In this document: one piece after another, positions 8,288 through 51,660 of the stretch
How positions within the stretch are numbered: position 1 is the first letter of the stretch
How the letters are laid out: each line of letters opens with the position of its first letter
Assembly: GCF_003236175.1 (NCBI RefSeq)
Contig: NZ_QKTW01000022.1
Coordinates: 402,579 to 466,578 of the forward strand
DNA: 64,000 bases
Direction of reading: 5' to 3'
Source: Taibaiella soli
GTDB taxonomy: Bacteria > Bacteroidota > Bacteroidia > Chitinophagales > Chitinophagaceae
Program-made: the position numbers and the translations under genes
Notes under the pieces: model-generated
The model's database searches: none
What the model was told of the DNA's origin: nothing
The model's input: the letters and a program-made list of their open reading frames with translations, nothing else

Positions 8288-9547
8288 ATGAAAAAAACAG
8301 CTTTTCGCAAACAACAGTGGCGCATGTTGCTCGTCACTATGTTTTGTTACATGTTCTTCTACACAGGCCGTCACAACTTTGGCTGGGCAGCGAAAGCAAT
8401 GGCAGGAGAATTGCACGTATCTTATGAACTCATTGGCTGGGTTAGTTTTGCAATGCTTATCGGGTATGCGATTGGACAGTTGGTGAATGGGAATCTCGCA
8501 GATCACTTCAACCCACGATATATGATACCGTTGGGCGGGCTACTGTCCATCAGTTGCAATTTTGCTATCAGCTTTGCGCATTCGTTCCAGCTCATCCTTT
8601 TTCTGTGGGCGTTAAACGGATTTTGTCAGTCGATGGCTTTTGCGCCCGGCAGCAGACTTATTTCTAACTGGTGGGGGAAAGAAGAGAAAAGCAAGGCCTT
8701 TGGATTTTATACGATGGCGGCCGGGGCTTCTTCTGTAATCACCTTTTTATTGTCCGTGATTCTGCTTCAAAAAGGCTTGGAATGGCGTTGGTTGTTCCGG
8801 ATACCGGTTTTATTTCTGCTGGTAGGTATTACCGTGTTTTTACTTTTTGCGCGTGGTAAACCGTCTGATATTGGTTATGCAAACCTTTCTGCAGATACGG
8901 ACTCGCTTGAGAAAACAAACTGGAAGGAGCGTTACAAGGCGGTGTTTAGTAATAAAGCATTTCTGATTACCTGCGTGGCCATGGGTTTTGAAAGTATGGC
9001 GCGCTACGGACTGGTGTTTTGGGTGCCCATTCATTATCTGGGTAAAGACTGGAGCAAGAATCCGCATTATCTCTGGATCACCGTGTTGATGCCGGTAGGT
9101 ATGGCTGTTGGCGCATTTAGTTTTGGTAACCTCTCCGATACTATTTTCCGGTCGGATCGACCAGCCTCTATTCGCTTTGGTATTTTGGTGAGTGCAGTTA
9201 TTTCATTGTTGATATATTTTGTGCCTGTCGGTAATGTTGTGATCGGAGCAATATTGTTGTTGCTCGCAGGCTTTTTTGTATACGGTCCGCAGGCCAATTT
9301 CTGGACAATGAGTCCCGAATTGCTCGGGGAGAAATACGTGGGTACGGGTATTGGCATCATGAATATGGCAGCCTATCTTTTTGCGGCGATGGGAGAGCCA
9401 TTGCTGGGCAAGGTGATAGACATGACTCATGATACTTCCGTTATTTTCCTTGTCATTACAGTGCTTTGTCTGGCCTGTGCGGTTACTATCTCTTTTGTAA
9501 ATACCAAAAAAATAAAGCAAACCGGAATGACGGCAGTGCTTTCCTGA
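8288..9547 (+). CDS. MFS transporter, organophosphate:phosphate antiporter (OPA/GlpT-like) type
   Basis: 419 residues with about 12 hydrophobic membrane segments and a short polar loop in the middle (about 190-215, ARGKPSDIG..). The N-terminus FFYTGRHNFGWAAKAM resembles the OPA family signature (GlpT, UhpT, PgtP), where the corresponding R-x-N-F/hydrophobic stretch lies in helix 1; a second Arg is at SRLISNWWGKEEKSKAFG. OPA carriers exchange organic phosphates for inorganic phosphate across the inner membrane. Placement behind phosphonate-associated enzymes suggests uptake of a phosphonate or phosphate ester. It is separated from the dehydrogenase by a palindromic element (8024-8190), so it may have its own promoter. 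The substrate is inferred only from family and context. Confidence 0.85.
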   Translation: MKKTAFRKQQWRMLLVTMFCYMFFYTGRHNFGWAAKAMAGELHVSYELIGWVSFAMLIGYAIGQLVNGNLADHFNPRYMIPLGGLLSISCNFAISFAHSFQLILFLWALNGFCQSMAFAPGSRLISNWWGKEEKSKAFGFYTMAAGASSVITFLLSVILLQKGLEWRWLFRIPVLFLLVGITVFLLFARGKPSDIGYANLSADTDSLEKTNWKERYKAVFSNKAFLITCVAMGFESMARYGLVFWVPIHYLGKDWSKNPHYLWITVLMPVGMAVGAFSFGNLSDTIFRSDRPASIRFGILVSAVISLLIYFVPVGNVVIGAILLLLAGFFVYGPQANFWTMSPELLGEKYVGTGIGIMNMAAYLFAAMGEPLLGKVIDMTHDTSVIFLVITVLCLACAVTISFVNTKKIKQTGMTAVLS

Positions 9548-34958: not shown

Positions 34959-35981
34959 ATGAAGAAAATAGGATTTTTATCGTTTGGGCATTGGGCCAAT
35001 CATCCAGCGTATAAAACGCGTACGGCAAGTGATACGCTGCTCCAATCGATCGATTTGGCAGTGGCTGCTGAAGCAATAGGTTTGGACGGAGCTTATTTCC
35101 GTGTGCACCATTTTGCGGCGCAACTGGCTTCGCCGTTTCCTTTGTTGGCTGCAATAGGAGCGAAGACAAGCAAGATTGAAATAGGAACGGGTGTGATTGA
35201 TATGCGCTATGAAAATCCGCTGTACATGGTGGAAGATGCAAGTGCTGCTGATCTGATTTCCCGCGGTCGATTGCAGTTGGGCATCAGCAGAGGTTCGCCA
35301 GAACAAGTGATTGACGGCTGGCGTTACTTCGGTTATGAACCTGAAGCTGGCGAGACGGATGCGGATATGGGTCGACGTAAAGCTCTTGAATTTTTGGACA
35401 AGTTGAATGGCATTGGATTTGCTGAACCCAATCCGAATCCTATGTTTCCGAATCCGCCGGGTTTGCTGCGTTTGGAACCGCATTCCGATGGATTAAGGGA
35501 TCGTATTTGGTGGGGTGCTGCTTCTAATGCAACAGCAGTATGGGCTGCGGAACAAGGTATGTATCTGCAAAGTTCCACGCTGAAGTATGACGAAGGCGGC
35601 AAACCGTTTCATGTACAGCAGGCCGAGCAGATCAGGTTGTATAAAGAAGCCTGGAAAAAAGCGGGACATAAGCGCGAGCCGAGGGTCTCTGTAAGTCGGT
35701 CGATTTTTGCGTTGGTCAATGATCAGGATCGTCTTTACTTCGGTGGCGAGGCTGATCGTGTTGATCAGATTGGTTCGATTGAAAAGGGCAAGCGTGCTAT
35801 TTTCGGAAGAAGTTATGCTGCGGAACCAGATCAATTAATTAAGGAGTTGGCGCAGGACGAAGCCATTCAAGAGGCGGATACACTTTTGCTGACAATCCCC
35901 AATACGCTGGGCGTCGATTATAATGTGCATGTATTGTCTTCTATTTTGGAGCATGTGGCTCCGGGATTAGGCTGGCGTTGA
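34959..35981 (+). CDS. LLM-class flavin-dependent oxidoreductase (bacterial-luciferase-like)
   Basis: 340 residues, TIM-barrel luciferase-like monooxygenase family. Typical stretches: IGFLSFGHW at the N-terminus, AEAIGLDGAYFRVHHFA, IEIGTGVIDMRYENPLYMVEDASAADLISRGRLQLGISRGSPEQ (flavin/phosphate-binding region) and IWWGAASNATAVWAAEQGMYL. The protein should use FMNH2 or F420 supplied by another reductase; in this phylum FMN is likelier. Monocistronic: terminator directly downstream and tandem inverted repeats directly upstream. Substrate unknown. Confidence 0.87.
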   Translation: MKKIGFLSFGHWANHPAYKTRTASDTLLQSIDLAVAAEAIGLDGAYFRVHHFAAQLASPFPLLAAIGAKTSKIEIGTGVIDMRYENPLYMVEDASAADLISRGRLQLGISRGSPEQVIDGWRYFGYEPEAGETDADMGRRKALEFLDKLNGIGFAEPNPNPMFPNPPGLLRLEPHSDGLRDRIWWGAASNATAVWAAEQGMYLQSSTLKYDEGGKPFHVQQAEQIRLYKEAWKKAGHKREPRVSVSRSIFALVNDQDRLYFGGEADRVDQIGSIEKGKRAIFGRSYAAEPDQLIKELAQDEAIQEADTLLLTIPNTLGVDYNVHVLSSILEHVAPGLGWR

Positions 35982-35999
35982 TATAATTAGTACTATTAG

Positions 36000-36038
36000 A
36001 AAATGCGTTGAGTCGATCGGTTTCGCTCAACGCATTTT
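36000..36038 (+). terminator. Rho-independent terminator after the LLM gene
   Basis: AAAATGCGTTGAG (36000-36012) pairs with CTCAACGCATTTT (36026-36038), 13 bp, followed by GTATTTTG. Eighteen bases after the stop codon. Confidence 0.75.
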
Positions 36039-36090
36039 GTATTTTGAAAAACGAAAGAGAGCGGTGATAAATCGTTCCATTCCTATAACT

Positions 36091-36332
36091 ACTTCAAAAG
36101 TCCTTCCCAACCATTAGAAAAGTACTTAACAACCACTTTCGAAGTGGTTACGATGCATTTCTTGAATACTTGCGAGGTATTTAAAAAGAGGTTGCTAACT
36201 ATTAAACAGGTACCTGCGATGTACTTTTTGAGTGGTTGTGATGTACTTCAGAAATACCTGCAAACCCCTTAAAAGATAGTTGTGATGTATTTCATAAATA
36301 CTTGCGAAGTACTAAAAATATACTTAACAGGC
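36091..36332. repeat. Minisatellite array A: 11 diverged copies of a 22-bp unit
   Basis: Cutting the sequence every 22 bases from 36091 gives eleven units that all start with A-(C/T)-T or C-C-T, carry an A-rich centre, then a (G/A)T-pur/pyr-CTT/GTT core, and mostly end in GATGT, GAGGT, AACC or similar. No insertions or deletions break the register. The unit length is not a multiple of three and there is no ORF. A further degenerate unit may precede at 36069. A 9-bp hairpin (36332-36355) follows the array. Confidence 0.8.
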
Positions 36333-36418
36333 AGGCGTTTGTACGTAAATGCCTGATTCATAAAACACACCGTATCTAAGTCAGTTAGGGTTATCTGTTA
36401 TTTATTTCTCCTGCACCC

Positions 36419-36660
36419 CCTTCAAAAGTCCCCGAGACGTACCAATTTAGTCCTTGTCGGGTACTAAAAAAGTAGTCATGGGGTATTAAAAAAGTCATCG
36501 TTGGGTATTAAAATAGTCCTCGTTGGGTACTAAAAAAGTAGTCGTCGGGTATTAAAAAAGTCATCGCTGGGTATTAAAAGGGTCCTTATCGGGTACTAAA
36601 GAAGTAGTCGTTGGGTACTAAATTAGTGATCGCAAGGTATTTCGGAAGTAGTCGCGGCCT
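36419..36660. repeat. Minisatellite array B: 11 well-conserved copies of the same 22-bp unit
   Basis: Eleven 22-base units in unbroken register; the consensus starts A(C/T)TAAAAAAGT, continues with AGTCGT- or CATCGT-like bases and ends GGGT. Units 3-5 (36463-36528) and 6-8 (36529-36594) repeat as blocks of three sub-types (..AAGTAGTC.., ..AAGTCATC.., ..AGTCCT..), a 66-bp higher-order repeat. Unit 1 and the last two units are diverged. The remaining part of the 36039-36799 gap (36333-36418 and 36661-36799) shows no gene. Confidence 0.88.
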
Positions 36661-36799
36661 TTTCGGCTCCGCTTGATGAGGCTTTTTATCCTGTCAAACG
36701 TCCAACTCGCTGTCAAATTCGTCCGTTTCAAGCATATAAGCCTTTAGCCACATTCAGGATCGAAATACCTTCGTATCTCAAACCACTAAATTTAGAGAT

Positions 36800-37204
36800 A
36801 TGAAAAGCAATACAATCAAACAAGCAATCTTTGGTGCTGTCGCATTGAGCGCATTTTTGTTTTCATCTTTTGCGATAGCACAAACGGGCACGAGCAGACA
36901 GCAATTGCAAGAACATGATCTTAGCGTACCGGGACGTGAAGTGGTGCAGTCTATTGTAACAATAGCAGAGGGCGGCAGTTTTCCGCGTCATAAACATCCG
37001 GGTGAAGAGATTATTTATGTGCTTCAGGGTGTACTCGAGTATCAGGTGGAAGGTCAACCAGCCACAACGCTCAAAGCTGGTGATGTTTTGTTTGTTCCTG
37101 CGGAAACAGTTCATTCGGTTAAGAATGTTGGCAAGGGTGATGCAAAGGAGCTCGCGACTTATGTAGTGAAGAAAGGTGTGCCGATGCTTACTTTGGATAA
37201 GTAA
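36800..37204 (+). CDS. Secreted cupin-domain protein
   Basis: 134 residues. Signal peptide about 1-28 (LFSSFAIAQ). A single conserved-barrel cupin domain with the metal-binding set GSFPRHKHPGEEIIYVLQGVLEYQVEG (two His, one Glu) and the second motif GDVLFVPAETVHSVKNVG (third His). Small periplasmic cupins of this kind are of uncertain function; some are isomerases or dioxygenase-like. A hairpin lies 20 bases downstream. Preceded by the 22-bp arrays. Confidence 0.85.
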   Translation: MKSNTIKQAIFGAVALSAFLFSSFAIAQTGTSRQQLQEHDLSVPGREVVQSIVTIAEGGSFPRHKHPGEEIIYVLQGVLEYQVEGQPATTLKAGDVLFVPAETVHSVKNVGKGDAKELATYVVKKGVPMLTLDK

Positions 37205-37213
37205 TATTGGATA

Positions 37214-37247
37214 CACAAAAAACGCTCCGTTCTGATTGGAACGGAGC
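37214..37247 (-). terminator. Terminator of the DUF4382 gene
   Basis: GCTCCGTTC (37224-37232) and GAACGGAGC (37239-37247) form a 9-bp stem with a 6-base loop. Read on the minus strand the stem is followed by GTTTTTTGTG. It also lies 20 bases after the convergent cupin gene, for which the T-tract is lacking. Confidence 0.7.
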
Positions 37248-37270
37248 GCTATCCATCTATATCAAATCCT

Positions 37271-38149
37271 TTATTGATGCAATGTCACGGTCCTCAACTC
37301 TGTTTCATGTCCTCTGCTTACGGATACATTCATGATCGTAGTATCGATGTAACCATTGGTGGAGTGGAAGAGTACATTGTACGTGCCTGTATTTAACCCG
37401 CGGATTTTAAAATAGCCATCGGCATTAGGGAAGGCCATAGCCGTATCTGTAGCATTGTAAGCTTGTATAACTGCCGCGGCATTCATCGGTAATACTTTAC
37501 CTTCTATTTGCGCAGATTTGCGGTCGCAGAATGGTTTCAATACTGGCAGCAAGTAGTAATGACCGTTTTTCTCAATAATAGAACGGCCTAAGTCAAAATC
37601 AAGCCAGATGCCAATATGTGCCGGGTTGTCATCGTCGCGGTCTTCATCATGCAGGTTGGTATACACGTAGTTTTTGTTGTTGTCCCAATTGATTAGTGTG
37701 AGCGGGTATTGTGTTCCGTTTTTAATTATATAGCTGCCATCACCAATCTTAATTCTGATTTTTCTAACTGTACCTGTTGTAGAAGCTGTTGCAATTAATG
37801 TGTCCACGCCATTTCTCAGGTCCAGTAAATTGTAGACACCGGGGGTAAAATTCAGATTAATCCAGGTACCGAAACGATCGTGATCGCCATCATGCTGGTT
37901 ATCATCGTCGCCGTCGTGGTCGTCATCGCCAAAATGATCATCGTTTTTATGTGAACTGGTATCTATTTTCGCGTCAATAGACACAATGTTGATATACACT
38001 GCATCAAACATGGCAGGTCCATCAGTCATATACACTGATAAATTGTTTGAACCAGCAGGCATGCTGTCGGAGGAGGAATCTTTTTTGCAGGAAGCTGCAA
38101 TCATGCTACCGAATAAAAGGACAGCGGCCCAATAAATGATCCTTTTCAT
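37271..38149 (-). CDS. DUF4382 lipoprotein with an Asp/His-rich insert
   Basis: 292 residues. Lipoprotein signal ending at Cys 21 (SMIAASCKKDSS). The DUF4382 domain begins NNLSVYMTDGPAMFDAVYINIVSIDAKI, interrupted at about 66-93 by a low-complexity run made almost only of Asp, His, Gly and Asn (e.g. DDHFGDDDHDGDDD), then resumes FGTWINLNFTPGVYNLLDL. The C-terminal 70 residues form a carboxypeptidase-regulatory-like segment (AQIEGKVLPMNAAAVIQAYN, NADGYFKIRGLNTGTYNVLF). Acidic/His runs bind divalent metals; I infer possible Ca or transition-metal binding at the surface. An 11-base perfect palindrome brackets the likely -7 element upstream, and a terminator follows, so it is monocistronic. Confidence 0.8.
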   Translation of the reverse strand: MKRIIYWAAVLLFGSMIAASCKKDSSSDSMPAGSNNLSVYMTDGPAMFDAVYINIVSIDAKIDTSSHKNDDHFGDDDHDGDDDNQHDGDHDRFGTWINLNFTPGVYNLLDLRNGVDTLIATASTTGTVRKIRIKIGDGSYIIKNGTQYPLTLINWDNNKNYVYTNLHDEDRDDDNPAHIGIWLDFDLGRSIIEKNGHYYLLPVLKPFCDRKSAQIEGKVLPMNAAAVIQAYNATDTAMAFPNADGYFKIRGLNTGTYNVLFHSTNGYIDTTIMNVSVSRGHETELRTVTLHQ

Positions 38150-41272: not shown

Positions 41273-41460
41273 ACGCTGTTTTTATTGTGCTGCATTTTAG
41301 CAGCAGAAGTACACTGCCGCGTTTCTGCGCGGACGGTTGGTATTTGTTATGAGCGTTACTTGTTGTTGCACGTGCGAAGCAAATGATTTTTGCCGTGCAG
41401 CAGCGAGAACGACGCTCCATACATATGCCGTTTCAATTCATCTTCCCAAAACACAATTTT

Positions 41461-44400
41461 ATGAACACCCACAAAGTGCCTTCTGCACAACAACCGGTTG
41501 CTATTATCGGTATGGCTTGTCGCTTTCCGGGAGCGAACAATTACGAAGAGTTTTGGCAAAATTTAATGGAAGGGCGATCTGGTATTTCTGAAATCCCGAA
41601 GGAGAGATGGGACTGGAAGCAATATCAGCACGACTTTCCGAAGAACGGTGCCACAGGAAAATGGGGAGGTTTTATTAAAGATGCAGATTGTTTTGACGCT
41701 TCGTTTTTTCAGCTTTCGGGTAAAGAAGCGGAGCTGATGGATCCGCAGCAGCGAATTATGCTGGAACTAGCCTGGTCTTGTATGGAGGATGCGGGGATAC
41801 CTCCTTCCAGATTATCAGGTACGAATACCGGTGTTTTTACTGGCGTTTTCAATTTTGATTATAAAGAACTCGCAGAGCGGGGAAGCGCAATTGCTGCGCA
41901 TTACGGCACGGGCACATCGACCGCTGTTGTCGCCAACCGACTGTCGTATTATTTCAATTTAAAAGGTCCCAGTGTCCCGATCGATACAGCATGTTCTAGT
42001 TCACTACAGGCAATACATATGGCTGCGCAATCCATACAGCTGGGCGAATGCGATCTGGCACTCGCGGGCGGAGTCAGTTTGTTGTTGACACCGGCCAAAC
42101 ATATTGCTTTCGCGAAAGCGGGGATGTTATCACCGACGGGAAGCTGCAAAAGTTTTGACGAAAGTGCGGATGGGTATATACGCGGTGAAGGTGCAGGATT
42201 GCTTTTATTAAAATCATTGGAGCAGGCAAAGGCTGATGGCGATATTATTTATGGTGTATTGCGCGGAAGTGCTGCTAACCACTGTGGCAGAACATATACG
42301 ATCACCTATCCAAGCCCCACAGCACAAGCTGAGGTGATTGCAACGGCTGTAAAGCGCGCTGGTATTGAGCCACAATCGATCAGTTATATAGAAGCACATG
42401 GGACCGGCACGCCCAAAGGCGATCCAATTGAGTTTGAGGGATTGACGCAAGCAATGCAAAATCTAAATGTTGCCGTAGCAAATAGTTATTGCGGTGTTGG
42501 GTCGGTAAAAGCAAACATTGGACATCTGGAATCCGCTGCCGGTGTGGCTGGAATGATAAAGGTGCTGCTGGCAATGAAACATCGGCAACTGCCCGGTCTG
42601 TTACATTTTAGACAGCTTAATCATCGCATTACACTGAACGATACACCTTTTTATATCGTAGACAAACATCGTGATTGGACATCCATTCTGGATGAAAACG
42701 GTAAAGCTTATCCGCGAAGAGCTGGTGTGAGTTCATTTGGTTTCGGAGGGACAAATGCGCACGTTGTGCTGGAAGAGGCGCCAGTTAAGGATCGTAGGGT
42801 ATCTGCAGAACAGCCGAGATATTTGATTTGTTTATCAGCAAAAAATAAAGAGGCACTTCAGGAAAACATCTCGGAATTAGTCGACTGGTTAGAAACTAGC
42901 GGACAGGGTGTCGATCTTGCGGATATTAGTTACACTTTGCTTTTTGGGCGCGATCATTTTCAGGTGCGCAAAGCTTTTGTAGTAAAGGATTTGAGTGATT
43001 TGCGGGCTGCATTGCGTGACGCTTCGACTCCGTTCAGCGTGGCAGGTCGATTATTGCAATTGGCAGAGCGATATATGGCTGGCCACAATGATGACTGGAA
43101 TTCCTTATTTCCAGATGGCGCAAATCGTATATCGATGCCGACGTATTCTTTTCAGCGGACAAGATATTGGTTGCAGGAAGATAAAATGCCTAGTTATTTA
43201 ACACGCCTTCCGGAAGAGGAGCATGATCGTTCGGACAAGCCACCTGTATGGGTTTTTGATGGCAACGAATGTTTTCTGAAAGATCATGTATTTAACGGGC
43301 AGAAGATATTGCCAGCTGTTGTTTATATGGAATTCGTACGTAGTCATGTTCAATATTTGTTACAGCAACAATTAAAGGAAGACGATATTATCTGCTTGAA
43401 GAATCAGGTTTGGATGGCCCCATTTATTGCCGACCGGGATGGTATCGCACTTCAAATTAGTTTGGAGCACAAAGAAAATGGTCATCTGTCTTACGAAGTT
43501 TTCTCAGAAGACGCGGTGCAGCGTAAAACAGTGCACAGTTGCGGAACTGCTTGTGTGATGAAGGTTGATGAAATGCCAGCCCATAAGGTCGGTCTGATTG
43601 CTGATGGCACACAGACATCGTTCGATGGTAAACAATTCTATGGCTTATTGCGTGACGCAGGATTTAATTATGGCCCCTCACACCAGATGATTAATCAATT
43701 GTTTGTAGACAAAGACAAGATTGTTGCCAGATTAAAAACTTCGGGTAGCGAAACAGAGACGGCTGCTTTTGTGTTGCATCCCGGTTATATGGATGCCGCG
43801 CTGCAGGCGACAATGGGATGGCTTGCGGAGGAAGCCGCAGAAGGCGCTGCAATTAAGATTCCCTTGCCGTTTACACTACAGGAATTAAAAGTCTTTTCTT
43901 CCTGTAAGAATGCAGCATGGATTATCGTGACGAAAAATAGCAAAGATCAGAGTGGTCAGACCGTAAACATTGACCTCTGCGACGCCTCAGGTAAAGTATG
44001 TGTACAACTGCTGGGATACTGTGGAAGAACTGTTGTCAATAAGGTTGCCGAGACTATCGGTATATCTGTCACTGAAGATGTACATCAGCTCGAGTCGTTC
44101 TGGATGGAAAAACAATCGCTGGATGATGAGGATTCCATTCAGTTTGAAAATCATGTCGCAATTCTATGCGGTGTATCAATGTCGTCTGGTGTTGACATTG
44201 ATCATCGCTGGCAAAACATCAGATGTCACCTGTTTGAAACCGACGCAATTGATGTTGCCGGAATGTTTACAGATTATTGCTGGAAGATTTTAGAGTTTGT
44301 GCAGGAACTGTCCGCCACGACACGCGGAAAACTCCTGTTGCAGGTGGTAGTGGCTAATGATGGCGACGGCAGACTGCTGGCCGGTTTGACCGGCTTATTG

Positions 44401-47400
44401 CGGACCGTTTCAGCGGAATATACAAAATTTCATACGCAGATTGTTGAATGGTCTAAGGCGGAAACATCAGATCTTTTTGAAACGTTAATGGGTAATAAAG
44501 CACAGGCAGCAGATCGTCATGTTCGGTATGAGGACGGAAAGCGGTTGGTGAAAAGTTGGCAGTATGCGGAGGAAAAGACGATGGTACCGAATCCCTGGCG
44601 AACCAACGGTGTGTACCTCATTACAGGTGGTATCGGCGGTCTGGGGTTAGTTTTTACAGAAGAGATTTTCCGCAGAACGTCCCGGGCAACGATTATACTT
44701 GTCGGTCGTAGTCCATTGTCTCCGGAGCATGAAACTCAGCTGCGTGCGTTACAGACAAAAGGTAACATTGTCGTATACCGGCAGCTTGATGTTACCAGTG
44801 CGACTAAAGTACAAGAGACAATTGGCTGGATCAAAAGCAGTTTTGGTAATCTGCATGGTATATTACATGCGGCGGGTATTATCAATGATAATTACATCAT
44901 CCGCAAAACACGGGATGAACTGGAGAAAGTACTGGCGCCTAAAGTGTCCGGTCTTATCAATCTGGATAATGCCAGCGCCGGCATGAATCTGGATCTTTTT
45001 GTCCTTTTCTCTTCTACAAGCGGCGCTTTAGGCAATATCGGCCAGTCAGATTACAGTGCGGCTAACTGTTTTATGGACGAATATGCCCGGTATCGAAATG
45101 GGCTTAGGGCGCAAGGTTTGCGTAGCGGAAAAGCGATTTCCATCAGTTGGCCCTTCTGGAAAGAAGGCGGTATGCGAATTTCAGATGCGGGGGTTGCAGC
45201 CTTGTATCGTTATTCCGGTATGGTGCCGCTCGAAACACAAAAAGGGATCCAAGCATTTTACAATCTGCTTCAGTCGTCGCAGGATCATGTTCTGGTCATG
45301 CAAGGCGATATAACCTTACTATCAAATAGACTTCAGTGTAACCTGGTGAAACGAACAGCGATTGCGTTAAATACTCATGAATCTTTAAACGAATCGAAAA
45401 TGAACCACCAAGAAAATAAACAGGCACAAGAGTTAATACAGCAGCTGATATGCATGGCTGCCGATATTCTTAAATCGTCAGCCGCAGATATCGATCCCAA
45501 AGCGCCATTGGAAGAATATGGTTTTGACTCGATTCTGTATACAGAGTTTGCCGTTAATCTGAATGAAACATTCAAAACAGATATCGGCCCAACGTTGTTT
45601 TTTCAACAAAGTACCATCGCCGCTTTAGCCGATTATCTGAGAGCGGAATCTACAACTATTCCTGCGGCAGTTTCTTCCGTTTCTGTCAATCAATCTAGTG
45701 ACGATAAGGACAAATTGCGGCAGTTGACAGCGGTGTTATGTGGTTATGCGGCCGAAATTCTGGAAGTTCCGGTTGCAGATATTGATCCCGCTGTTGGCAT
45801 GGATGAATATAGTTTTGACTCTATCGGCTATACCAGTTTTACCATTAAAATGAATGATGCGTTCGGGCTACAATTGGCGCCGACACTGTTTTTCGAATAC
45901 GCGACGCTGAAAGCTTTAGCGGAACATTTACTGGATCGCTGGCCCGCTTGCTTTGAGGGTGAATTATCAACGTACGACGGTCAAAGAGAATCAACGCAAG
46001 GGCCATTAAAGATGGGCGCGCCTTCAATTGTGGAAGCGCAAGGACCCGCGATGGCTGCAGATAAGGATTCCGCTGAAGCAGCGATTGCGATCATCGGGGT
46101 CAGTGGTAGTTTTGCGATGTCCGAAGACATTGAAGAATTGTGGAAGAATCTGATTGGCGAAAAAGATTGCATTACGGAGATTCCGGCTGATCGTTGGGAT
46201 TGGGAAAGCCATTATGGTAATGCGGTATCGGAAAAAGGAAAAACCAACGTGAAATGGGGCGGATTCCTGAAAGATCTGAATGCATTTGACGCGTCGTTCT
46301 TCAATATTTCTCCGGGCGAAGCGGCTTATATAGATCCGCAGCAACGTTTGCTCTTAATGCACGTCTGGAAAGCTTTGGAGGATGCAGGTTATGCGCCACA
46401 GGATTTTTACGGCAGTAATACCGCGTTGTTTACGGGAATAACAAGTCATGAATATAGCGCCCGTGTATCGAGGATAAATGTAAAAACCGAAGGATATCAT
46501 CAGGCGAGCATCATATCCTGTATTGGTCCGAATCGCGTAAGCTATTTTTTGAATCTCCACGGTACGAGTGAGCCGGTTGATACGGCTTGTTCCAGTGCTC
46601 TGGTTGCTATCCACCGGGCAGTACGGGAAATCAGATCGGGTGATAGTGAGCTGGCAATTGCAGGTGGTGTGACGGTATTGTCTTCGCTTCCGTCTTACAT
46701 CAGTTTTGATAAAGCGGGCATGTTGTCAAAAACAGGCCGTAGCAGAACATTTTCCGATCAGGCAGACGGTTATGCACGTGGCGAAGGCATTGGGATTATT
46801 TTGTTGAAACGACTAGACGCTGCTGAACGGGACGGTGATCATATATATGGCGTGATCAAAGGTACGGGCGTGAATCATGGCGGCCGTGCCAATTCATTGC
46901 AGGCACCCAATATGCGCGCTCAGGCGGCTTTGCTAAAGACCGTCTACTCAAAAGCTGGTATTGATCCACGCACAGTGGGTTATGTAGAGGCGCATGGTAC
47001 GGGTACTAAAATTGGTGATCCAATAGAGATCGATGCACTAAAGGCGGCTTTCAAAGAGTTGTACAGCGAGACAGGAAGCGAAGAGGTGAAATCGGTGCAT
47101 TGCGGGATTGGTTCATTGAAAACAAATATTGGCCATTCGGAATATGCGGCTGGAATAGCGGGTGTGATTAAAGTATTGCTGCAAATAAAACATCAGACCT
47201 TAGTAAAAACCCTGCATTGTGAAACGATGAATCCATATATCGATATTAAAAACAGTCCATTCTATATCGTACGGGAAACACAAGCCTGGCAGTCTTTACG
47301 GGATGCTCATGGAAAGGCCTTGCCGCGAAGAGCAGGTGTGAGCTCGTTTGGATTCGGTGGTGTTAATGCACATGTGATTCTCGAAGAGTATGTAGATAAA

Positions 47401-50400
47401 AGGCCTGTTATGGAAACATCTGATGATTGTTTAAAACTATTTGTGCTGTCTGCAAAGAAACCAGAACAACTGAAAGTACAGGTGCAGCAGTTATTAAAAG
47501 CGATCCGTTTAAATGTATTTACCAATAGTGATTTTGCCAGCATTGCCTATACTTTACAGGTAGGCCGGAATGCTATGGAGGAACGTTTATGCATTTTAGC
47601 GAAAGATTTTAAAGAGCTTGAAAACAGATTGGAACGATTCCTGATCAATGGTAAACAAGAAGATTGGACTTATATAGGGCAAGTCAAAAAGATAAAGCCA
47701 GGCAGTAATACCGCAAATACTACAGCAATCGGCGAGCAGATAGCCGAATGCATACGGACCGGCGATTATAAAAGTCTTGCGCAACTCTGGATTGAGGGGT
47801 ATACTATAACCTGGAGCCAGTTGTATAAGAATGAAAACCCGCGCAGGTTGAGCCTGCCGACTTATCCATTTGCTAAAGAGGTTTTCAAATTGGATGCGGA
47901 ATATACATTGACCGAAAAAGTGGCTGCACCTTTTTTACCACTAATGCGGGTGGCGGAGCCAGTGGTGGAAATGCCGCCGAATAGCGAAATTCAGCACATA
48001 CTCGTTGCGAACATAGCACGTTTGCTGAACATGAAAGCAACACACATTTCGTTTGATGAAAGTCTGGAAGAATATGGTTTTGATTCGGTTTTGTACACGC
48101 AGTTTTCCATCGAGTTAAATGAACAATTTGGATTGGACCTGACACCAGCAGTGTTTTTCAGGTATCCAAACATTGGGCAGTTATCGGTTTATCTCGCAGA
48201 TGAATATCCACTGGCATTTAACAGATCAAGGCAAGATTCTGCAACACAAGAGGTCGTGGAGAAGTCTGTTGTGAATATTGTGGAATCCGCCACATATCTG
48301 AATAGATTGATCGGCATATTAACAGGTAAAGTAGCGCAGATATTGAAGTTTAGCGAAGACTTGATTGATCCGGCAGCAGATCTGAATGAATATGGTCTGG
48401 ATTCAATTATTGTTACACAACTTACCAGTGAATTGAATGAAGAATTTGGTTTTGAACTTACACCCAATATCATTTTCGGATGTCAGAATTTACAATCATT
48501 AGGTAGTTATATTCAGGAAAATTACCGCGATTTTTTTTCGCATGCGCCGTGTGATATGCCAATAGAGATTTCTAAAAATGAAGTTGCAGAAGAGTCTCAG
48601 CATCATCCGGCGCCGGCTGTCTTAGAGGAAAAGAAAAATAGCGAAGGCGTTGCCGTTATTGGACTCAGCATTCAGTTTCCCATGGCTAAGGACGCGAATC
48701 AATTTTGGGATAACCTGGTGAATGAAAAACACTGCATCTCAGAGATCCCTGCTGACCGTTGGGATTGGCGGGATTATCCGGAGCTCAAAGTGAAATGGGG
48801 TGGTTTTATGGATGATATGGCCTCTTTTGATCCACTTTTCTTCAAAATATCGCCTGCAGAAGCTTTGCAAATGGAGCCCCAGCAGCGTTTGTTGATGCAA
48901 CATGCCTGGAAGGCGATTGAAGATGCCGGTTATAATCCGCACAGTTTATCAGGCACTAATACCGGAGTTTTTGCAGGTATTCTTTGTTATGAATACAGTA
49001 AATTATTGGCGAAGGCAAATGTTCCCATTGCCAGTCATTCGCTGATGGGGATGGTAGGGTCAATGGGACCGAATCGCATTAGTTACTTTCTGGATATTCA
49101 CGGTCCGAGCGAAGCTATTGAAACAGCTTGTTCCAGCTCATTGGTTGCGATACACAGGGCGGCAGAAGCGATCGTATCCGGAACCTGTGATATGGCACTG
49201 GCTGGCGGTGTAAATACATTGCTGTCGCCGGATGTGTTTATGAGTTTACACGAAGCTGGCACATTAAGTCCGGATGGCGTTTGCAGACCATTCTCCGATC
49301 AGGCAAAAGGTTATGTACGCGGGGAAGGTGTCGGTGTTGTTTTCTTAAAACGTCTGGAGGATGCGGAACGCGATGGCGATCATATCTATGGCGTGATTCG
49401 CGGTACAGCCGAAAACCATGGCGGACGCGCCAATACACTTACTTCGCCAAATCCTAAAGCACAGGCTGCCTTATTAGAGACAGCTTATGTCAACGCTGGG
49501 GTCGACCCACGAAGGGTCGGCTATATCGAAACGCATGGTACCGGTACTGAATTGGGTGATCCAATAGAAGTGAATGCTTTGAAAAAGGCTTTTGGAAAAT
49601 TGTACGACGATAAAGGTCTGATGTTTGCTGGTGAAAAGCATTGTGGCATCGGTTCTGTAAAATCAAATATCGGGCATCTGGAAGTGGCGGCTGGTATAGC
49701 TGGTGTTGCTAAAGTGCTATTGCAAATGAAACACAAAAAGCTGATTAAAAGTTTACATACAGAACGCTTAAATCCATATATCGACTTTAACGATGGGCCT
49801 TTCTTCGTCGTGAAAGAAACTGCCGAATGGAAAGCGATTCGCGATGAAGCTGGTAAGGAGTTACCTCGATGTGCTGGCGTTAGTTCGTTTGGATTTGGCG
49901 GGGTTAGTGCACACATCGTACTGGAAGAGTATGTTCCGAAAGTGAGCAAAGGAGCCAGCGAAGCGCCACGAAGCATTGTGGTTCTATCCGCAAAAAACAA
50001 AGAACTTTTACATGAATATGCTCAAAGTTTGCGTAGTGCCATAGAGAATAAACAAGTTGAAAATGAAGATCTGGCGAGCCTCGCGTATACCTTGCAAATA
50101 GGTAGAGAAGCAATGGAAGAACGATTTGCCGTGGTTGTTGATTCTTTACCACAATTATGGGCTGCACTGAATGAATTTATTTGCGGCGGCTCATTTAACA
50201 GAATTTGGTTTCAGGGAAATATTAAACAGAAAGCAGAAACAACAACAGTTAATGTTTCAGATCCTTTGGCAAAGATGGCTATGGAATGGATTACAGGCGG
50301 ACGTGTAGATTGGATGGGCCTGTATGGAAAACAGAAGCCAGTGCGTATGAGTTTACCTACATATCCGTTTGAACGGAAAAAATACTGGCCGGCAGATGTT

Positions 50401-51660
50401 AAGCGAAGTGGTACCTCAGACACTGCACCGGATGTTGCGTTTGTTCCTGCGAATGAAGGAGATCTGAACACGCGTGCTATCGCGTTTTTCAAGAACACGA
50501 TTTCACAATTGGTAAACATACCGGCACGGGAAATTCAAGAAACGGAGCTGCTGATTCATTATGGTGTCGATTCAATTGCGATCAGCAGACTGTTGGTGAA
50601 AATGAGAAGTGTGATGCCTAAGTTAACGAACAGTGTTGTGTTTGAACATCCTACTATCGCTGAACTTGTCGACTACCTGGTAAGAAATGAAAACACAGGC
50701 TTACAACAATTGTTGGGCGTTCAAACGGAGCGAAAAACAGATCATTATTTTTCTGGAAATAGTTTGCTCTTGTTGAATGATGCGTCCCAAGGGCGGCCAG
50801 TATTCTGGTTTCATCCAGGTGGCGGCAGTATAGATGGCTACCAATATTTTGCAGCAGTCAGTGAACGTCCGTTTTATGGTGTCGTGGCCGATCAATGGAT
50901 CAGAGAAGGGAGAAATATTCAGGGCATTCCTGAAATGGCGGCAACGTATCTCCGCATGATTCAGTCGGTGCAGCCAGAAGGACCTTATGACCTTGGTGGA
51001 TTTTCTCTGGGTGGTGCGCTGGCTTATGAAATAGCCCGTCAGCTGCAAGTACAGGGACAACGTGTTGCTACGATTACAATGATTGATTCGGTCTATGTGC
51101 CTGAAATGATGGGTAAGTTTTTACTGGATTACAAAACGATGCTCTTGCAAACAGTCAACCTGTTATTAATGACACAGACACCAGCAAGTAGCATCGGGCA
51201 GACTTCAGGACTCATTCACCGGAGTGAGTTAGACGTAAATCTTTCCGATAAAGCCTTCCTTGATCTGATTATGCAACAGGCGCGTCAACGCGGATTTACT
51301 TATCCAACTGCTTATGTGGAGGCAATCGTTGCAAAGGGTTTAAAAGTAAGGGATGCGTCAGGCTTTACCGATTATAAGGTATTGCCATTGATCGATCCGG
51401 CCGGTATTCACTGCACCTATTTTGTTAATGAGACACAGTCTTTTTATGGAGACCTGTCATCGTATTTCATCTTGAATGAAAAAGATAATGTGCTGATTGA
51501 ACAAATAGTTTATTGGGATGCCTGGCGGAAACAGCTTGCTCATTTTGAAAAAATAGCAATCCCCGCAACAGACCATGTCACACTGATGAATGACCATAGT
51601 ACGTTGAAGCTCGTTATTGATCATTGCAAAACGCAGTATGCCTTCAGTTTCCAGGTTTGA
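41461..51660 (+). CDS. Trans-AT polyketide synthase: KS-DH-KR-ACP-ACP-KS-ACP-ACP-KS-ACP-TE
   Basis: 3399 residues from ATG 41461; the frame opens at 41383, but KS similarity starts right after the chosen Met. Domains, with active residues read from the sequence: KS1 about 13-440 (C178, H313, H355); DH about 597-860 (H609 in HVFNGQKILP, D778); KR about 1049-1287 (GGIGGLG, S1185, Y1198; an Asp at the B-type position, GIINDNY); ACP1 S1357; ACP2 S1454; KS2 about 1541-1977 (C1710, H1845, H1892); ACP3 S2209; ACP4 S2315; KS3 about 2397-2823 (C2557, H2692, H2739); ACP5 S3038; TE from about 3080 (S3182 in GFSLGG, D3209, H3372). All three KS have the full Cys-His-His set and each is followed by a post-KS linker (LPTYPF-like). 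No AT domain is present; malonyl units must come from the trans AT gene downstream. No methyltransferase, integral ER or HMGS cassette. Confidence 0.95.
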   Translation: MNTHKVPSAQQPVAIIGMACRFPGANNYEEFWQNLMEGRSGISEIPKERWDWKQYQHDFPKNGATGKWGGFIKDADCFDASFFQLSGKEAELMDPQQRIMLELAWSCMEDAGIPPSRLSGTNTGVFTGVFNFDYKELAERGSAIAAHYGTGTSTAVVANRLSYYFNLKGPSVPIDTACSSSLQAIHMAAQSIQLGECDLALAGGVSLLLTPAKHIAFAKAGMLSPTGSCKSFDESADGYIRGEGAGLLLLKSLEQAKADGDIIYGVLRGSAANHCGRTYTITYPSPTAQAEVIATAVKRAGIEPQSISYIEAHGTGTPKGDPIEFEGLTQAMQNLNVAVANSYCGVGSVKANIGHLESAAGVAGMIKVLLAMKHRQLPGLLHFRQLNHRITLNDTPFYIVDKHRDWTSILDENGKAYPRRAGVSSFGFGGTNAHVVLEEAPVKDRRVSAEQPRYLICLSAKNKEALQENISELVDWLETSGQGVDLADISYTLLFGRDHFQVRKAFVVKDLSDLRAALRDASTPFSVAGRLLQLAERYMAGHNDDWNSLFPDGANRISMPTYSFQRTRYWLQEDKMPSYLTRLPEEEHDRSDKPPVWVFDGNECFLKDHVFNGQKILPAVVYMEFVRSHVQYLLQQQLKEDDIICLKNQVWMAPFIADRDGIALQISLEHKENGHLSYEVFSEDAVQRKTVHSCGTACVMKVDEMPAHKVGLIADGTQTSFDGKQFYGLLRDAGFNYGPSHQMINQLFVDKDKIVARLKTSGSETETAAFVLHPGYMDAALQATMGWLAEEAAEGAAIKIPLPFTLQELKVFSSCKNAAWIIVTKNSKDQSGQTVNIDLCDASGKVCVQLLGYCGRTVVNKVAETIGISVTEDVHQLESFWMEKQSLDDEDSIQFENHVAILCGVSMSSGVDIDHRWQNIRCHLFETDAIDVAGMFTDYCWKILEFVQELSATTRGKLLLQVVVANDGDGRLLAGLTGLLRTVSAEYTKFHTQIVEWSKAETSDLFETLMGNKAQAADRHVRYEDGKRLVKSWQYAEEKTMVPNPWRTNGVYLITGGIGGLGLVFTEEIFRRTSRATIILVGRSPLSPEHETQLRALQTKGNIVVYRQLDVTSATKVQETIGWIKSSFGNLHGILHAAGIINDNYIIRKTRDELEKVLAPKVSGLINLDNASAGMNLDLFVLFSSTSGALGNIGQSDYSAANCFMDEYARYRNGLRAQGLRSGKAISISWPFWKEGGMRISDAGVAALYRYSGMVPLETQKGIQAFYNLLQSSQDHVLVMQGDITLLSNRLQCNLVKRTAIALNTHESLNESKMNHQENKQAQELIQQLICMAADILKSSAADIDPKAPLEEYGFDSILYTEFAVNLNETFKTDIGPTLFFQQSTIAALADYLRAESTTIPAAVSSVSVNQSSDDKDKLRQLTAVLCGYAAEILEVPVADIDPAVGMDEYSFDSIGYTSFTIKMNDAFGLQLAPTLFFEYATLKALAEHLLDRWPACFEGELSTYDGQRESTQGPLKMGAPSIVEAQGPAMAADKDSAEAAIAIIGVSGSFAMSEDIEELWKNLIGEKDCITEIPADRWDWESHYGNAVSEKGKTNVKWGGFLKDLNAFDASFFNISPGEAAYIDPQQRLLLMHVWKALEDAGYAPQDFYGSNTALFTGITSHEYSARVSRINVKTEGYHQASIISCIGPNRVSYFLNLHGTSEPVDTACSSALVAIHRAVREIRSGDSELAIAGGVTVLSSLPSYISFDKAGMLSKTGRSRTFSDQADGYARGEGIGIILLKRLDAAERDGDHIYGVIKGTGVNHGGRANSLQAPNMRAQAALLKTVYSKAGIDPRTVGYVEAHGTGTKIGDPIEIDALKAAFKELYSETGSEEVKSVHCGIGSLKTNIGHSEYAAGIAGVIKVLLQIKHQTLVKTLHCETMNPYIDIKNSPFYIVRETQAWQSLRDAHGKALPRRAGVSSFGFGGVNAHVILEEYVDKRPVMETSDDCLKLFVLSAKKPEQLKVQVQQLLKAIRLNVFTNSDFASIAYTLQVGRNAMEERLCILAKDFKELENRLERFLINGKQEDWTYIGQVKKIKPGSNTANTTAIGEQIAECIRTGDYKSLAQLWIEGYTITWSQLYKNENPRRLSLPTYPFAKEVFKLDAEYTLTEKVAAPFLPLMRVAEPVVEMPPNSEIQHILVANIARLLNMKATHISFDESLEEYGFDSVLYTQFSIELNEQFGLDLTPAVFFRYPNIGQLSVYLADEYPLAFNRSRQDSATQEVVEKSVVNIVESATYLNRLIGILTGKVAQILKFSEDLIDPAADLNEYGLDSIIVTQLTSELNEEFGFELTPNIIFGCQNLQSLGSYIQENYRDFFSHAPCDMPIEISKNEVAEESQHHPAPAVLEEKKNSEGVAVIGLSIQFPMAKDANQFWDNLVNEKHCISEIPADRWDWRDYPELKVKWGGFMDDMASFDPLFFKISPAEALQMEPQQRLLMQHAWKAIEDAGYNPHSLSGTNTGVFAGILCYEYSKLLAKANVPIASHSLMGMVGSMGPNRISYFLDIHGPSEAIETACSSSLVAIHRAAEAIVSGTCDMALAGGVNTLLSPDVFMSLHEAGTLSPDGVCRPFSDQAKGYVRGEGVGVVFLKRLEDAERDGDHIYGVIRGTAENHGGRANTLTSPNPKAQAALLETAYVNAGVDPRRVGYIETHGTGTELGDPIEVNALKKAFGKLYDDKGLMFAGEKHCGIGSVKSNIGHLEVAAGIAGVAKVLLQMKHKKLIKSLHTERLNPYIDFNDGPFFVVKETAEWKAIRDEAGKELPRCAGVSSFGFGGVSAHIVLEEYVPKVSKGASEAPRSIVVLSAKNKELLHEYAQSLRSAIENKQVENEDLASLAYTLQIGREAMEERFAVVVDSLPQLWAALNEFICGGSFNRIWFQGNIKQKAETTTVNVSDPLAKMAMEWITGGRVDWMGLYGKQKPVRMSLPTYPFERKKYWPADVKRSGTSDTAPDVAFVPANEGDLNTRAIAFFKNTISQLVNIPAREIQETELLIHYGVDSIAISRLLVKMRSVMPKLTNSVVFEHPTIAELVDYLVRNENTGLQQLLGVQTERKTDHYFSGNSLLLLNDASQGRPVFWFHPGGGSIDGYQYFAAVSERPFYGVVADQWIREGRNIQGIPEMAATYLRMIQSVQPEGPYDLGGFSLGGALAYEIARQLQVQGQRVATITMIDSVYVPEMMGKFLLDYKTMLLQTVNLLLMTQTPASSIGQTSGLIHRSELDVNLSDKAFLDLIMQQARQRGFTYPTAYVEAIVAKGLKVRDASGFTDYKVLPLIDPAGIHCTYFVNETQSFYGDLSSYFILNEKDNVLIEQIVYWDAWRKQLAHFEKIAIPATDHVTLMNDHSTLKLVIDHCKTQYAFSFQV

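Follow-up and report, generated by a model that had tools for sequence, protein, structure and literature searches.

Helix-phased tandem arrays in Taibaiella soli, probably one half of a protein-DNA system

The genome of Taibaiella soli, a member of the Chitinophagaceae in the phylum Bacteroidota, contains non-coding tandem arrays whose units measure about two turns of the DNA helix. Two of these, called here array A and array B, lie between two genes in a stretch of 64,000 nucleotides (the window; contig NZ_QKTW01000022.1, positions 402,579 to 466,578). Arrays of this kind are probably not stray minisatellites but one component of an undescribed protein-DNA system, and the other component may be a family of proteins of about 160 amino acids, called here H, most of whose genes in this genome are followed by such an array. 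No description of such arrays was found in the open-access literature.

Array B (36437-36656, forward strand) consists of ten 22-bp units with the core RRGTAYT...RGTVVTY and is an unlinked member of what is termed the GTAC array class. The GGGTAYT form of the core recurs from 36459 to 36613 with every spacing equal to 22, the units themselves starting from 36437. Tandem Repeats Finder (TRF) reports a period of 22 with 0% indels and a period of 66 with 85% match over 36448-36641, and the periodicity of the array is 0.684, whereas 300 dinucleotide shuffles reach at most 0.328. A sequence-only reading of this DNA had counted eleven 22-base units without an indel; the exact spacing and the absence of indels stand, but only ten units are clean, and the supposed first one (36415-36436) agrees with the consensus at just 10 positions. 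The 66-bp super-repeat that it proposed is evident in the self-match of the array (0.74 at lag 66 versus 0.66 at lag 22) and in columns 16-18 of the units, which read CCT AGT CAT, CCT AGT CAT and CCT AGT GAT. The order CCT-AGT-CAT extends over almost three rounds (36437-36634, forward strand), the last being CCT-AGT-GAT, rather than the two of that reading. Array B is a genuine tandem array and is non-coding, as had been claimed: no open reading frame of at least 60 amino acids lies over it, and its diverged units are contiguous. A coding array is ruled out for both window arrays, which no open reading frame covers, and a CRISPR array is ruled out by units that touch one another, are diverged and lack unique spacers. 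An Rfam search of 35900-37300 gave no match at E values up to 1.

Array A (about 36080-36340, forward strand) has about eleven 22-bp units that are more diverged, possess dyad symmetry and are out of register with array B, which begins 100 bp further downstream. Its periodicity is 0.546 against a shuffle maximum of 0.329. The array is placed between array B and an inverted repeat at 35997-36041 (forward strand; 16-nt arms, 94% complementary, with a T-rich tail), a probable terminator that is missing from the list of a stricter terminator scan; both arrays lie beyond it. The upstream gene (34959-35981, forward strand) encodes a luciferase-like monooxygenase (Pfam Bac_luciferase, 1.6e-24) and the downstream gene (36800-37204, forward strand) a cupin protein (Pfam Cupin_2, 5.6e-21). 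Neither flanking gene shows any connection to the arrays, and no H gene stands beside them. T9SS sorting domains were also identified, which points to the Bacteroidota. An open reading frame of 3425 amino acids resembling a modular polyketide synthase occupies 41383-51660 of the window, 5 kb downstream of the arrays. The sequence-only reading did not include array A as a 22-bp array, dyad symmetry, 21-bp sister arrays or the link to a protein family.

Additional 22-bp arrays between other genes, which that reading had named as support to look for, are present in the genome: BLAST, pattern searches and a sequence profile (R1) located six more loci of the array A/B class (C13, C32, C8, C19, C30 and C18). 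Array A itself gives weak R1 matches, and the C18 array, which was outside the training set of the profile, contains a 66-bp repeat at 91% match. Among 396 genomes of the family, searched with stricter filters, the class was found at the array level in this genome only. Across seven arrays (about 75 units), conservation is seen in the GTA and RGT columns, changes in columns 1, 6 and 19 are transitions only, and T never appears in columns 16-17; such uneven conservation within the same units argues for selection, as the earlier suggestion of a selected property would have it. On the basis of k-mer similarity to the C32-linked array, together with phase and profile matches, arrays A and B are regarded as unlinked representatives of the class that has its gene-linked copy at C32. 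The similarity is 0.32-0.51 for B, C13, C8, C19 and C18 (null maximum 0.20), the C32-linked array being the one closest to B at 0.51, whereas the assignment of A (0.22) and C30 (0.20) by k-mers is weak and is supported by their phase and profile matches. The H gene linked to this class encodes a 165-aa protein (C32:170793-171284). A dispersed GC-rich repeat (CGGGTCGTGCTATCCGCTGCAAGTCCTCGC..., at L003 ~1734-1830, L007 ~1690-1790 and L038 ~8421-8500) adjoins three of the arrays.

Other non-coding arrays in the genome have unrelated sequences and share the same design of some 10-16 imperfect units. A period scan that covered 944 kb of the genome's own DNA gave periods of 21, 22 or 64 (21+21+22); a period of 65 (21+22+22) also occurs. 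TRF finds 0-1% indels in all such arrays at only 54-84% match at the unit period, so that the constant phase with changing bases first remarked in array B characterizes all of its sibling arrays as well. In the two arrays with periods of 64 and 65, the spacing of the core alternates as 21,21,22 and 21,22,22, which indicates that the units keep two helical turns and not an exact length. Of the 19 arrays tested, 14 have dyad symmetry that exceeds column permutation (p < 0.05), array B not being among them (p 0.38), and higher-order repeats of 66, 84 and 88 bp are present. In some 21-bp arrays elsewhere one reading frame is free of stop codons, but the variation among codon positions follows no consistent coding pattern.

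Several other repeats were encountered in the course of these searches. Simple heptamer arrays, e.g., (AAGTCAA)n and (TTTTGAC)n, are frequent in the intergenic DNA of this genome (L039 16856-16960; L251 5171-5478; L085 11166-11451; L087 496-671). Two 21-bp arrays of the same genome (L248 5290-5600 and L086 640-880) match no gene-linked class, and the first adjoins a contractile injection system tape measure gene and the gene of a 245-aa protein of unassigned family. The matches listed by a global scan for 11-mers with RGTAYT are mostly other 11-bp repeats, including coding ones, and the scan does not serve as evidence. Among the matches listed are near-perfect 11-bp repeats of the AAGTACCGACC type inside related coding sequences (L093, L119, L122, L153, L157 and others), which are consequently translated in all three frames in turn and are a different phenomenon from the arrays. 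Also among the matches listed are rumen Bacteroidales and Prevotellaceae metagenome-assembled genomes with several pairs each of short inverted 11-bp arrays, of the form (AATACCATAAT)n ... (ATGGTATTTTA)n (L101, L115, L136, L151, L156 and L158).

The link to H came from three sampled arrays that sat behind homologous members of this family. A search with an alignment of the three proteins identified 12 H paralogues scattered over the genome, and 11 of them have an array downstream that starts within about 110 bp of the stop codon, compared with a background of 12 in 721 genes; the printed p of 3e-19 for this linkage overstates its significance, since paralogues are not independent. Five H subfamilies, whose mutual identity is at most about 34%, nevertheless each carry arrays. 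Arrays follow about 4 of 13 H genes in other genera of the family (L336, L337, L345 and L346) and 17-19 of 25 in the phylum's other families; of the 48 H genes checked in total, 32 have an array within 300 bp. The best periods of these 32 arrays are 7 (two arrays), 11 (one), 21 (18), 22 (four), 42 (two), 43 (three) and 64 (two). An intrinsic terminator is found at most 160 bp from the stop codon in 32 of the 48 H genes, versus 1 in shuffled controls, and usually stands ahead of the array, which places the array outside the H transcript. The class of the array tracks the H subfamily (k-mer similarity, Mantel r 0.74, p 5e-5), and k-mer similarity places most unlinked arrays in one linked class each. 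No gene other than H was found in common among the H loci.

Searches of Pfam, NCBIfam, PHROGs, PADLOC and PDB sequences gave no credible match to the H protein, which is judged from its sequence to be helical, and recognized no DNA-binding domain in it. Of 296 genomes sampled from the phylum, 26 encode H. The family extends beyond this phylum, as a homologue with 30% identity is encoded on plasmid pTs417 of Candidatus Thiodictyon syntrophicum (L348 3995-4462, annotated "hypothetical protein"); no array lies behind it, which adds one to the 16 of 48 H genes that lack an array. Phages, plasmids and viral contigs yielded no arrays and no H other than this array-less homologue.

Arrays of the same design also occur without H. 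In genus g62 (L284-L295; G330, G263 and G215), a 21- or 22-bp array is located 100-560 bp upstream of the start codon in 11 of 12 members of another small-protein family, whose proteins of about 200 amino acids have an fn3-like C-terminal part. The unit sequences are unrelated to one another, the one exception being an orthologous pair (56% identity) whose two arrays share period 22. There is no sign that H is homologous to this fn3-tailed family (hhalign E 0.13), and an fn3-type profile match in L129 is merely the fn3 domain of a 2312-aa protein. In genus g17, in which no H gene was found, the orthologous site after the homoserine dehydrogenase gene (L296, L297 and L298) is occupied in G131 by a 22-bp array and in G202 by a 21-bp array of unrelated sequence, and has no array in G016. 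The array is therefore the constant element, and its protein partners may differ.

The quantization of the units in two helical turns, the dyads on one face and the position behind terminators favor a role at the level of DNA. Half-sites, usually with dyad symmetry, return to one side of the helix at intervals of 10.5-11 bp and make up units of 21 or 22 bp, and in the gene-linked form the H gene is followed by a terminator and then by the array, which would act as DNA. The H protein encoded beside it, or a partner of H, would bind the array cooperatively along one helix face; cooperative binding by the neighboring small protein or its partner is the most economical mechanism. For the class in the window, the candidate binder would be the 165-aa protein encoded at C32, or its partner. 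Unlinked arrays, including A and B, would be further sites of the same protein, which could thereby form an anchor, bridge or roadblock spanning many loci of the chromosome. That A and B are unlinked arrays of this general kind, bound by H or its partner as a multi-site DNA platform, is put forward tentatively, as quite possible. The broader proposal, also tentative and somewhat doubtful, is that the phylum harbors undescribed paired elements, each an H protein with its own helix-phased dyad array of a sequence private to the subfamily, together with extra unlinked arrays. Counted against the platform explanation are the H genes without arrays and the arrays of g62 and g17 without H; the correspondence of H and array classes, which could also arise if the gene and its array were duplicated together; and the absence of significant dyad symmetry in array B, of connected neighbors beside A and B, and of a recognizable DNA-binding domain in H.

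Joint duplication is central to the best-surviving alternative, an unlikely one, in which H gene and array form a mobile or recombining cassette that moves and duplicates as a whole, A and B being copied or leftover arrays that lack the gene. The array would then serve exchange or spread, e.g., as the target of an unknown recombinase. The scattering of the twelve H paralogues, the existence of unlinked arrays of the same classes, and the g17 site at which the array is present, absent or replaced are all consistent with such a cassette, but the H loci share neither a recombinase nor any other gene, and searches found neither array nor H gene in phages and viral contigs and no array in plasmids.

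Rather improbable is an RNA gene, in which the array transcript would be a chain of short hairpins that binds or regulates H. Most arrays do have dyad symmetry, the RNA folding energies of many are below those of shuffles, and the g62 arrays precede the gene of a small protein, an arrangement also seen in type III toxin-antitoxin loci. The GTAC arrays, however, show no covariation at the level of the unit (the covariation test run with folding mixes two dyad types at period 22 and is not relied on there), neither an Rfam match nor a promoter above chance was found at the arrays, the arrays lie behind the H terminator, and an RNA would have no need of an indel-free period of 21-22.

A neutral minisatellite, generated by slippage and unequal exchange and then decaying, with its neighbors there by chance or hitch-hiking, is less probable again. 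It would accommodate the 66-, 84- and 88-bp higher-order repeats, the unrelated sequences at orthologous sites and the intergenic position of array B without a connected gene, but it is disfavored by the association of arrays with H genes, and the restriction of the period to two-turn multiples, the near absence of indels at 30-45% divergence and the unequal conservation of the unit columns also oppose it. Least probable is that the DNA is bent by A-runs phased at two-turn intervals and that this bend is the function. The wedge model does predict a curved array B, at the 99.5th percentile of the window and beyond each of 100 shuffles, and most of B has the one A-run per unit described earlier, but array A lacks this pattern and its predicted curvature does not exceed that of shuffles, and A-runs are absent from other array classes built on this design. 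Curvature may apply to B but not to A, and it is not supported as a general cause.

The H loci resemble the centromeres of plasmid partition systems (ParR-parC, omega-parS and TubR-tubC) in having a small protein gene beside short phased repeats, and parS-type sites can occur at several places (PMC5016525). In those systems, however, the array is upstream or within the promoter and an NTPase partner gene is found at the locus, whereas H arrays lie downstream of the stop codon and terminator and H loci have no common NTPase gene. H also matches no known centromere-binding family of partition systems, and its arrays are chromosomal, with many paralogous pairs per genome. Because of the missing NTPase, the downstream position and the multiple chromosomal copies, the pair is not filed as plasmid partition. 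The iterons of plasmid origins likewise consist of indel-free direct repeats that measure about two helical turns, but they adjoin a replication initiator gene; the arrays described here have no replication protein, are next to unrelated genes, and are numerous, dispersed on the chromosome and different in sequence. Type III toxin-antitoxin loci (ToxIN) also combine a repeat array with one small protein gene and a terminator between them; the ToxIN array is upstream of the ToxN-type gene, in contrast to the H array, whose units are far more diverged, and H has no PADLOC or Pfam match. Bacterial minisatellites (VNTRs) are similarly non-coding tandem repeats with higher-order repeats, yet they do not share the phase kept without indels at high divergence, the two-turn period or the link to a protein family. 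A genome-wide periodicity of 10-11 bp, near the helical repeat and concentrated between genes, is known in bacteria (PMC516772, PMC4132750, PMC7537859), but it is a weak dinucleotide signal spread over whole genomes, unlike the present arrays, which are discrete, 200-400 bp long and tied to a gene family.

What appeared to be a local curiosity becomes a candidate two-part system, composed of an uncharacterized protein family and the array behind most of its genes, in which the array keeps its helical phase while its sequence changes completely between H subfamilies. If H does not bind the array, the two-turn period of unrelated sequences beside one gene family needs explaining. If it does, the pair would be a new way to mark, and perhaps join, chromosomal sites, with many separate pairs per genome. 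Should the reading as paired elements be true, parallel and mutually distinct protein-array systems would coexist in one cell, and arrays A and B would be remote sites of one of them.
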